DNA of 34,204 nucleotides, taken from positions 1 to 34,204 of the forward strand of contig SVRE01000019.1 in the NCBI GenBank assembly GCA_015065005.1. Direction: 5' to 3'. The stretch is from Oscillospiraceae bacterium (GTDB lineage: Bacteria > Bacillota > Clostridia > Oscillospirales > CAG-272). This document shows, piece after piece, positions 13,960-31,213 of this stretch (within the stretch, counting starts at the first letter, position 1; every line of letters begins with the position of its first letter). The notes under the pieces were generated by a model. The model saw nothing but the letters and a program-made list of their open reading frames with translations. It did not search any database and was not told the origin of the DNA. The position numbers were made by a program, and so were the translations under genes.

Positions 13960-15915
13960 ATGAGCGGATTTGTGCTTAAAAGCGACTACAAGCCAACAGG
14001 CGACCAGCCACAGGCTATCAAGACCTTGACTGAGGGTATTCTGCGCGGTGAGCGTATGCAGACGTTGCTTGGCGTTACGGGTAGCGGAAAGACCTTTACA
14101 ATGGCAAATGTTATTGCGAATATTAACCGCCCTACCATTATTTTTGAGCCTAACAAGACCTTGGCGGCACAGGTTTGCTCCGAAATGAGGGAGCTTTTTC
14201 CCGATTCTGCCGTTGAATATTTTGTATCCTATTATGACTACTATCAGCCTGAGGCATACATTCCCGGTAAGGATATGTACATTGAAAAGGATGCAATGGT
14301 TAATGATGAAATAGACAAGCTGCGCCATAGCGCCACAAGCGCCCTTTTTGAGCGCAGAGATGTTATTATTGTAACAAGCGTTTCCTGTATTTACTCTCTT
14401 GGTGACCCGGAGGAATACCAGAGCCTGCAGATTGGTTTGCGTGAGGGTGCTGAGATGTCACGTGATGATTTGGTGCGCCAGCTTATTGCCCTTAACTATG
14501 AGCGAAACGATGTTAATTTTATACGTAACAAGTTCAGAATACGGGGGGACGTGGTTGAAATTTTCCCTGCATCCTCCACGGACAAGGCAATTCGCGTTGA
14601 ATTTTTCGGAGAGGAAATTGACAGGCTTTCCGAGATAAACACCTTGACGGGCGAGATTTTAAGGAATATGTCCTATGCGGTAATCTTCCCTGCCAACCAC
14701 TATGTTGTTTCCAGCAAAAAGCGAGAGGCGGCGCTGCAAAAGATTTATGATGAAATGGTGGAGCGGGTTGAGTTCTTTAAGAGCCAAAATAAGCTCCTTG
14801 AGGCGCAAAGAATTGAGGAGAGGACAAAGTACGATATTGAGATGCTGCGTGAAATCGGCTTTTGCTCGGGAGTTGAAAACTACTCCCGCATTTTAAGCGG
14901 ACGTGCCCCCGGCTCAACTCCTTATACCCTGCTTGATTATTTCCCCAAGGACTATGTTATGTTTATTGATGAAAGCCACGTTAGTGTGCCACAAATACGG
15001 GGTATGAGCGGCGGAGATTTGGCAAGGAAAACAAACCTAATCGAGTACGGCTTCCGCTTACCCTCTGCCTATGACAACCGTCCGTTGAATTTCCCCGAAT
15101 TTTTATCAAAGCTTAACCAAACAATATTTGTCTCTGCCACCCCCGGTGACTTTGAAAAGGAAAAATCCACTACTGTTGCAGAGCAGTTAATACGTCCAAC
15201 GGGCTTGATTGACCCAAGCGTGGAAATACGCCCTATTGCAACACAGATTGATGATGTTATCGGAGAAATTCGAGTTAGAATCGAGAAAAAGGAAAGGGTG
15301 CTTGTTACTACCCTTACCACCAAAATGGCTGAGGACTTAACGGACTTTTTGGCATCTAACGACATTAAGGTAAAATACATTCACCACAATGTTGACACCA
15401 TTGAGCGAATGGAGATTATACGCAGCCTGCGCCTTGGCGAATTTGACGTGCTTGTGGGCATTAACCTGCTACGTGAGGGTCTTGACATACCTGAGGTTTC
15501 CCTGGTGGCTATTCTTGATGCGGACAAGGAGGGCTTGTTCCGTTCCGAGCGGTCACTTATACAGACAATCGGACGTGCGGCGCGTAATGCAAGCGGACAC
15601 GTTATTATGTATGCGGATATTGTGACAAAATCAATGCAGGTTGCAATTGAGGAAACAAACCGCCGCCGTGCAATACAGCAAAAATATAACGAGGAAAACG
15701 GAATTATACCTAAGACTATTATCAAGGGTGTACATGACGTTATTGACCTTGGCAAAAAAGAGGACAAGCGCAAAAAGGGCAAGCTGAGCCGCGAGGAAAA
15801 GGAAAAGCTCATAGCAGAGCTTACCAAGGAAATGCGCAGTGCCTCTGCTAAGCTGGAATTTGAAAAGGCCGCTTACCTGCGTGACCAGATTAAGGAGTTA
15901 AAAACCACAAAATAA
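13960..15915 (+). CDS. uvrB: UvrABC system protein B
   Basis: 651 residues, normal UvrB length. The damage-verifying helicase of nucleotide excision repair, which is loaded onto DNA by UvrA and recruits UvrC. Walker A GVTGSGKT (38-45), the DNA-clamping beta-hairpin region [16 protein letters not shown] near 87-102, DESH (Walker B type) near 333, the helicase motif [18 protein letters not shown], and a C-terminal UVR domain (about 615-650) ending [26 protein letters not shown] precedes the ATG. The last 17 codons are repeated twice more downstream in a 118-bp tandem array. uvrA follows, so both repair genes are probably co-transcribed. Confidence 0.98.
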
Positions 15916-30400: not shown

Positions 30401-30616
30401 CAACTTTTTATACAATATGTTGAATGGGTGACATTATAAAAGATCGGCCAGGATAGGACTGTACTCTAAATGGCAGTTTTTACTTGCTGCCAGAATAAAA
30501 ATTCACCAACTTGGTTGGTGATCTTGCATTTTCGACATAACCCTAACACTACCGGCTAGCCTTACGCTTGTTACAGTTTGCCATAAATGGCTTATGTCAT
30601 TTTATAATTACAAGAT
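30401..30616. other. Gene-free stretch with several hairpins
   Basis: No credible reading frame. Contains TCACCAAC/GTTGGTGA with a three-base loop near 30508-30530; read on the minus strand it is followed by ATTTTTATT, like a terminator. There is also GGCAG/CTGCC near 30473-30495, and CCATAAATGGC near 30583. It could hold an unrecognised RNA or the remains of a mobile repeat. Confidence 0.35.
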
Positions 30617-30672
30617 ATAAAGCCTCCCTTGTGTAAAGGGAGGTGGCACACGAAGTGTGACGGAGGGATTGT
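30617..30672 (+). repeat. Left terminal repeat of the DUF559 unit
   Basis: Hairpin A is CTCCCTT/AAGGGAG around a five-base loop; hairpin B is CACAC/GTGTG around GAA; it ends GACGGAGGGATTGT. The AGGTGGCAC and GTGACGGA blocks are shared with the uvrB-uvrA units. Confidence 0.85.
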
Positions 30673-30673
30673 A

Positions 30674-31042
30674 ATGCAGAGAAAACATAATAAAGAGATT
30701 GTTCCAACTGCAAAAATGCTACGAAAAAATATGACCAAAGAAGAAAAGCACCTTTGGTATGATTTTTTGCGCACATATCCGATCCGTTTTTTGCGTCAAA
30801 AGGTTCTTGGAAAGTACATTGCAGACTTTTACTGCGCAGAGGCAAAGCTTGTAATTGAACTTGACGGTTCGGGTCATTATACCGAGGGTGGAAAGCAATA
30901 TGATAAAGAAAGAACTGCTTTTCTTGAAGAATACGGATTGACAGTTATCAGAATACCGAATACGGAAATACATAAAAACTTTCGAGGTGTTTGCGAATAT
31001 ATTGACCATCTCGTAGAACAATCCCTCAGTCAGCTTCGCTGA
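30674..31042 (+). CDS. DUF559 (Vsr-like) endonuclease-domain protein
   Basis: 122 residues, predicted PD-(D/E)xK-type fold related to Vsr. The likely active site is Asp51 in KYIADFYC, Glu62 and Asp64 in LVIELDGSGHYT, and the C-terminal VIRIPNTEI. The N-terminal TAKMLRKNMTKEEKHLWYDF is typical of DUF559 (helix rich in Lys/Arg/Leu, LRxxxTxxExxLW). Role unknown; DUF559 members occur alone or fused to mobile-element proteins. The start at 30674 is chosen because GGAGG lies seven bases upstream, inside the left repeat; an upstream TTG frame is spurious. The last residues, QSLSQLR and stop, are encoded by the right repeat. Confidence 0.85.
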   Translation: MQRKHNKEIVPTAKMLRKNMTKEEKHLWYDFLRTYPIRFLRQKVLGKYIADFYCAEAKLVIELDGSGHYTEGGKQYDKERTAFLEEYGLTVIRIPNTEIHKNFRGVCEYIDHLVEQSLSQLR

Positions 31043-31073
31043 CAGCTCCCTTTACACAAGGGAGCCTTTTTAT
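31018..31073 (-). repeat. Right terminal repeat of the DUF559 unit
   Basis: Inverted copy of the left repeat. Hairpin A arms are the same; hairpin B reads GTCAGC/GCTGAC around GAA, so its arms differ from the left copy but remain paired. It contains the stop codon of the nuclease gene. Confidence 0.85.
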
Positions 31074-31085
31074 GTTCATCTATGC

Positions 31086-31106
31086 CTTGTCATTTTTCCT
31101 GACAAG
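31086..31106. repeat. Short hairpin right of the DUF559 unit
   Basis: CTTGTCA (31086-31092), seven bases, TGACAAG (31100-31106). There is no T run downstream on the plus strand. TTTGTG/CACAAA follows near 31114-31127. Confidence 0.4.
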
Positions 31107-31130
31107 CACTGCATTTGTGTCCACAAACAC

Positions 31131-31169
31131 AAAACACGGTATACCTCTTTCGAGATATACCGTGTTTTT
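31131..31169. terminator. Bidirectional terminator, mainly for the sodium-pump genes
   Basis: AACACGGTATA/TATACCGTGTT with a short internal CTC/GAG extension and a TTTC loop; T runs on both sides. It is 45 bases beyond the stop at 31214. Confidence 0.8.
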
Positions 31170-31213
31170 GAAAACTGTCCTTTAAAGTGTAGCTCTGTCG
31201 TAGCCGATTTTAT

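Follow-up and report, generated by a model that had tools for sequence, protein, structure and literature searches.

A DUF559 gene built into two inverted REP-like arms was confirmed in the window, i.e. the whole stretch of 34,204 nucleotides of contig SVRE01000019.1 from an Oscillospiraceae bacterium that was analyzed. The family of units to which gene and arms belong is, on well supported grounds, mobile. The best reading of the data, with a probability of roughly 0.57, is that the DUF559 protein is the enzyme of this mobile family.

The unit in the window comprises three features, listed with the evidence for each:

30620..30672, + strand, left arm (inverted-arm score, core alignment, folding of single-stranded DNA)
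30674..31042, + strand, DUF559 (PF04480) nuclease-like gene of 122 aa (Pfam, PDB match, structure model)
31018..31067, - strand, right arm, oriented opposite to the left arm (arm score, core alignment, folding of single-stranded DNA)

The left arm consists, in this order, of an outer hairpin (CCTCCCTT-GTGTA-AAGGGAGG), an inner hairpin and GACGGAGGGATTGT, and the right arm contains an inner hairpin (GTCAGC-TTC-GCTGAC) and an outer hairpin (GCTCCCTT-TACAC-AAGGGAGC). Both inner hairpins have stems of about 5–6 bp and 3-nt loops. Complementarity between the arms is 86% over a 37-nt core and 93% over a 15-nt inner core; the arms are unlike in that GACGGAGGGATTGT in the left arm corresponds to GACTGAGGGATTGT in the right arm read inverted. 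The inverted-arm score in the window was 68, whereas none of 100 shuffles exceeded 26. In single-stranded form, each arm is predicted to fold into the two hairpins, outer and inner (z-scores of -5.2 and -6.8), and none of 200 shuffles folded as well. The initial annotation had stated that the left repeat supplies the Shine-Dalgarno site and the right repeat the last codons and the stop. Both statements hold: GGAGGG at 30662–30667 lies in the GACGGAGGGATTGT part of the left arm, 6 nt before the ATG at 30674, and the C-terminal residues QSLSQLR as well as the TGA at 31040–31042 are encoded by the right arm. The unit contains no second ORF. Since none of the 22 other window genes passed the flank test and the arms recur elsewhere in the genome, a chance origin of the window arms can be excluded.

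The gene product matched the Pfam model DUF559, an entry (PF04480) still labeled as of unknown function, with E=1.6e-29 and 102.4 bits against a cut-off of 20.6; DUF2726 and MTES_1575 remained below their cut-off. The sole PDB sequence match of this single protein at E<=10 was 3hrl, an endonuclease-like protein of N. gonorrhoeae (3.5e-12). A structure model of middling confidence, built from 25 sequences (pLDDT 69.9, pTM 0.62), matched 3hrl and the homing endonuclease I-Bth0305I (3r3p) with TM scores of 0.60–0.63, and Vsr (1vsr) at rank 18. The residues D51, E62, D64, and H68 are invariant across the 25 sequences. By modeled fold and conserved acidic residues, the window protein is classified as a predicted PD-(D/E)XK nuclease of the Vsr-like type. 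The Vsr protein of E. coli is a nickase. Searches with Rfam revealed no family at the unit or its surrounding cassette (one match below threshold), PADLOC gave only weak matches to other systems, and the best NCBIfam model stayed far below its cut-off.

The occurrence of arms at other DUF559 genes was analyzed in a Clostridial and a plasmid set. A scan of species genomes resulted in 360 relatives among 383 stretches, of which the best 80 were taken; with 30 same-genus loci added and three duplicates removed, the set comprised 107 loci, 101 of them with enough flank. Inverted arms scoring above the best of 100 mononucleotide shuffles were found at 89 of the 101 loci (69/75 and 20/26) and missed at 12, some of the same-genus scores including neighboring repeats or palindromes besides the arms. 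DUF559 genes of this type therefore usually have such repeats, the first point on which the proposed mobility had been made to depend. In the plasmid collection, 37 records contained a relative, and 14 of the 20 examined passed a test of this kind, L283 by a single point; in the six others, a CCC/GGG hairpin was seen by eye at one side of the gene. These 20 loci are not independent, as they include three from Sphingomonas, two from Sinorhizobium, three from Azospirillum and three from Deinococcus. Among 155 other genes used as control (S. meliloti, Sphingomonas, Deinococcus and the window), only six scored above the best shuffle, and one of these encodes an IS4 transposase adjoining a DUF559 gene. 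A gene combined with inverted repeats, as in RAYT/REPIN systems, is thus present.

DUF559 genes were located between sufB and sufC, between two transhydrogenase genes, between paaD and paaZ and between yqeY and dnaG. Up to seven matches per genome were found. In the units read, no second gene was noticed between the arms. DUF559 is the gene enclosed by such arms even in phyla far apart from each other, with differing arm sequences. In a check for a phage home, a relative was encoded in two of 52 pattern-matching stretches of viral contigs. A control search of 14 well-known genomes gave a match in two (Caulobacter and Corynebacterium).

Arm similarity follows protein similarity, with a Mantel correlation of r=0.73 for 40 units thinned from 89 and of r=0.63 for 20 units of the genus only; none of 2000 permutations was as high in either case. 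Pairs of units from one genome were compared in six cases. In G011, G014, G017, and G022 the arms are very different (0.12–0.29) and the protein lineages differ, G024 has an intermediate arm similarity (0.57), and in G020 both proteins and arms are alike. This co-variation does not prove an action of the protein on the arms, because the two are linked and linkage alone gives co-variation. It shows inheritance as one unit and is compatible with specificity.

In the source assembly, which is 83% complete, about ten further places carry arm sequences. A search of the unit against its own genome gave 23 matches, palindromic places being counted on both strands, and several of these are, by eye, nuclease-free pairs of a left arm, about 20 bp and a right arm. 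One such pair (L194 on contig C34, contig positions ~14534–14619) has an extra stretch that its two arms share in inverted order, which is what copying of one arm from the other by foldback would look like. DUF559 itself was matched four times: in the window, between pyrF and pyrE (interrupted by TAA), on contig C45 and on contig C7 (interrupted by TAG).

Inward-facing arm cores could be detected in 51 of 246 family genomes, and in none with the reversed pattern as control. With 0–30 bp allowed, the spacer measured 21–25 bp in 121 of 143 listed rows, which include one place listed on both strands, and was never below 18 bp. Dispersed, gene-free inverted dimers with a defined spacer, the second RAYT/REPIN feature, are thus present as well. 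If relatedness is ignored, dimers are commoner in genomes with a DUF559 match (34 of 112 versus 17 of 134, p=5.7e-4) and with a close DUF559 relative (13 of 25 versus 38 of 221, p=2.4e-4). The remaining 17 of the 51 dimer-bearing genomes have no DUF559 match, some of their assemblies being incomplete.

The window unit lies within a larger element at about 30451–31199, a cassette with the following parts and flanks:

30439..30450, + strand, possible left half of a terminator stem of the host (this copy scores under the 95th percentile of shuffles)
30451..30481, + strand, left end of the cassette, a degenerate copy of ATAGRGYNGTACYCTAAAGGACAGTTTT
31131..31168, no strand, hairpin of the cassette 3′ module, at the same place in many printed relatives
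31170..31199, - strand, right end of the cassette, in the window GAAAACTGTCCTTTAAAGTGTAGCTCTGTC
31200..31212, + strand, possible right half of this stem, with a T-rich tract (again scoring under the 95th percentile of shuffles in this copy)

The unit was found inside such a cassette in the window and at 20 further loci where both ends could be reached. The cassettes have inverted ends (ATAGRG..CTAAAGGACAGTTTT and AAAACTGTCCTTTAG..CTAT), their own 5′ and 3′ modules and one variable cargo ORF, by eye NUDIX, methyltransferase, peptidase-like or VanZ-like, which the window copy lacks; no transposase was noticed in the cassettes read. The left module was found in 38 of the 246 family genomes and in none with the control. 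Downstream of it, L145 and L148 contain an ORF of 436 aa that is truncated by the end of the locus and whose start resembles a sigma factor by eye. In 28 of 30 cassettes with both ends, or 26 of 28 distinct ones as two places occur twice, the outer flanks are complementary above the 95th percentile of shuffles, and all 30 have a T tract; the window copy, with its worn ends, is one of the two misses. From these flanks, the cassettes at 30451–31199, L010–L064 and L123–L152 appear to be inserted in the loops of intrinsic terminators. DUF559 is not among the longest ORFs in seven of nine cassettes with both ends in one set. Cassette and unit are separate layers. The window unit was probably brought to its place by the outer cassette, which is likelier than an arrival by the unit itself.

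The travel of the unit inside a cassette with other ends, as seen in the rumen subfamily, and the 17 dimer-bearing genomes lacking a match would fit a mobile unit whose arms are recognized by another transposase or by host replication or repair, with DUF559 as cargo or as a selfish maintenance factor. A passage of PMC12308824 points the same way, describing repeated segments of Legionella with a transposase and DUF559 as recombination hotspots. This is rather improbable in view of the presence of DUF559 between differing arms in widely separated phyla, the lack of a second gene between the arms of the units read and the co-variation of arm and protein even within one genus.

Sites without the unit were found at two loci. 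The pyrF-pyrE spacer was analyzed at 24 loci in 23 genomes of the genus, the source genome included: the unit is present in three (G000, G007, and G011) and absent in 21, where the gap measures 14–305 bp and in one case (G005) holds a lone outer hairpin only. In other species (L154, L160, and L162) this spacer contains different palindrome-rich stretches, and it may collect insertions. At the window site, the upstream gene was found in 13 relatives. Both flanks align in four of them and the unit is absent from all four; the remaining nine are uninformative, as the far side does not align within the locus. By eye, little beyond a terminator is present in G011, G018, and G026, and different DNA with a small ORF in G021. 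Sites lacking the unit, the second point on which the initial annotation had made mobility depend, thus exist among relatives at the window locus. Cassettes with the same cargo differ too: a nuclease-free arm pair is found in L133 and a lone hairpin in L150, while L033/L037/L050 and L012/L042 hold the whole unit. In L150 and L158, the outer hairpin stands alone where relatives hold the unit, which would fit an excision scar as well as a pre-insertion state.

The position between pyrF and pyrE that the unit shares in three species could also result from homing, in which the nuclease cuts the empty allele and the unit is copied by recombination with the filled homologue. I-Bth0305I is among the nearest solved folds, and an intein-borne DUF559 gene is assigned to the EDxHD homing family in a passage of PMC9403480. 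Units occupy many unrelated sites, however, and homing alone would leave neither the 67–108 bp duplications described below nor dispersed nuclease-free dimers, which makes this explanation very unlikely. As for the self-contained mobile unit proposed initially, the union of gene and arms in most of the relatives tested, the varied sites of the unit and the unit-free sites support it for the family, but the window copy itself more likely arrived in the cassette.

Direct repeats anywhere within 250 bp were found at 12 of 88 units, compared with 1 of 150 in a cross-paired null. Strict duplications, whose two copies lie no more than 15 bp from the unit, were detected at 5 of 19 same-genus units versus 2 of 342 cross-paired flanks:

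L094, 67 bp, 98.5% identity
L097, 104 bp, 99%
L098, 108 bp, 92%
L102, 69 bp, 93%, copies containing repeat pieces
L111, 94 bp, 98%

L097 and L098 are located at the same kind of site and may represent one event. By eye, the duplicated piece in L111 and in L097/L098 is the 3′ end of the gene directly upstream. In the L009–L088 set, 0 of 69 units have a strict and 5 of 69 a loose duplication; among dimers (30 fetched of 143 listed) none of 24 has one, and in the plasmid set 1 of 13, which is loose and of 72% identity. The flanking direct repeats of L116, which contain the arms themselves, and of L108, which contain other repeats, were not counted as target duplications. In another species, a solo REP arm downstream of the same kinase gene (L182) is accompanied by a 62-bp direct duplication of 82% identity. 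A base-exact empty site at strain level was not found for S. meliloti, Sphingomonas sufBC, E. coli ycjD or an E. coli boxC dimer; for S. meliloti, the record was chromosome-sized and no other one covers 80% of the query. An assignment of the unit to the IS elements or MITEs of a DDE transposase was rejected, as there is no second ORF and the strict duplications of 67–108 bp are not short and fixed.

These duplications, the positions inside conserved operons, the up to seven matches per genome and the relatives without the unit at the same site all speak against a resident nuclease that repairs mismatches or processes hairpins or triplexes and around which repeats gather by chance or selection. 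Such a function is quite unlikely for the units, although the fold resembles Vsr and the DUF559 protein VsrA of Caulobacter causes an SOS response in cells without the methylase ScmA, for which its authors propose mismatch or very-short-patch repair (PMC12907096).

The DUF559 gene of E. coli, ycjD, is located between sapF and fabI; a K-12 strain and BL21(DE3) are among the strains annotated with it. At least 80% of the query was covered in 3364 of 5426 genomes. For the other 2062 genomes, no place covers 80% of the ycjD region. Three boxC-like repeats are found at this gene in strain 118UI (L291): one shares sequence with the 3′ end of ycjD, the other two lie ahead of fabI, and one repeat of the ycjD-fabI spacer is identical to TMECO no. 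9 in Table 1 of PMC4666352. According to that article, knowledge of boxC repeats in E. coli goes back to the 1990s, five inverted pairs are each composed of one repeat of each of two types, and no remnants of transposases or integrases were found around the repeats; neither ycjD nor DUF was matched in its text. Three E. coli strains without ycjD have an efflux operon at sapF instead and thus no clean empty site. In strain E28, 207 bp including and surrounding a boxC dimer are missing, with borders that are not exact.

If the DUF559 protein is the enzyme, gene and arms would form one mobile unit, in which the Vsr-like nuclease would nick DNA and bind hairpin arms, both those of its unit and those of nuclease-free dimers. 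Nicks on opposite strands, about 60–130 bp apart, would be set at a target that is sometimes the 3′ end of a gene; hairpin DNA would be joined or copied there, and fill-in would give the long duplications. This nick-and-fill route is a proposal that we regard as less likely than not. In the window, an older copy of the unit rides in the separate terminator-loop cassette. More broadly, and tentatively though with somewhat better prospects than the route itself, DUF559 proteins may include a new class of transposition enzymes: lone Vsr-fold nickases that mobilize hairpin repeats (boxC-type, Clostridial REPs and dimers) across phyla, with variable target duplications of about 60–130 bp from distant opposite-strand nicks, and that could be the enzymes so far lacking for boxC and other orphan repeats related to it. 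Many DUF559 genes would then have a role beside the repair proposed for VsrA, and DNA would have a route of mobility that is neither HUH nor DDE and leaves an unusual footprint. The data suggest that a DUF559 enzyme may spread a class of short repeats of unexplained origin. With a one-gene nuclease family built into boxC-type repeats and ycjD present in K-12 and BL21(DE3), the question is directly testable.

DUF559 has been linked to mobility and repair earlier, through the Legionella segments, the EDxHD intein and VsrA; PMC8836110, PMC9845703, and PMC8861277 mention it incidentally. A link to REP-like repeats was not among the matches listed in the open literature, subscription papers and preprints lying outside this scope. 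With VsrA, studied as a possible mismatch-repair enzyme, the unit protein shares the Pfam domain and the Vsr-like fold. The nuclease fold is also similar to that of EDxHD/Vsr-like homing endonucleases such as I-Bth0305I, but there is no sign of units homing into one cognate allele. The outer cassette resembles mobile insertion cassettes (MIC), both having inverted ends and a passenger gene and lacking a transposase. It differs in targeting terminator loops and in that no parent IS was found; none with the same ends was noticed among the loci read.

Among repeats, the boxC/PIT/TMECO intrastrand-triplex class (described in PMC4666352) is found, by eye, beside several DUF559 genes. Its inverted pairs join two unlike types, and the window arms are likewise unlike, but in place of the short loop of boxC they contain a second hairpin. 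A CGTC tag and a CCA tail were seen by eye in many, though not all, of the arm types, and many unit arms read CGTC-hairpin-CCACC from the inside with the tags face-to-face, as in the CGTC-tagged REPs of PMC3733652. The stem lengths do not match, and some unit lineages have other tags; the inner hairpins of the window arms also differ in their dimensions from the 8–9 bp stem and 4–5 nt loop of CGTC REPs.

The likeness to REPIN/RAYT (TnpA-REP) lies in a single enzyme gene with palindromic repeat flanks and in dispersed gene-free inverted dimers (for the RAYT features, in part PMC3733652). RAYT is a HUH tyrosine transposase, whereas the unit enzyme is a predicted PD-(D/E)XK, Vsr-like DUF559 protein; furthermore, a GTAG tag was not noticed in the unit arms, and long duplications lie beside some units. 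Membership in RAYT/REPIN was rejected, as the HUH Y1 tyrosine transposase is absent and both Pfam and fold point to a nuclease. The nuclease may act on the repeats, as suggested initially by analogy with RAYT, and the nuclease-free pairs are dispersed in the manner of REPINs, but the enzyme is of another type. For boxC-type and Clostridial REPs, DUF559 would play the part that RAYT has for GTAG REPs, and we infer a REPIN/RAYT-like mobile system with a nuclease of the Vsr/I-Bth0305I fold as its putative driver.
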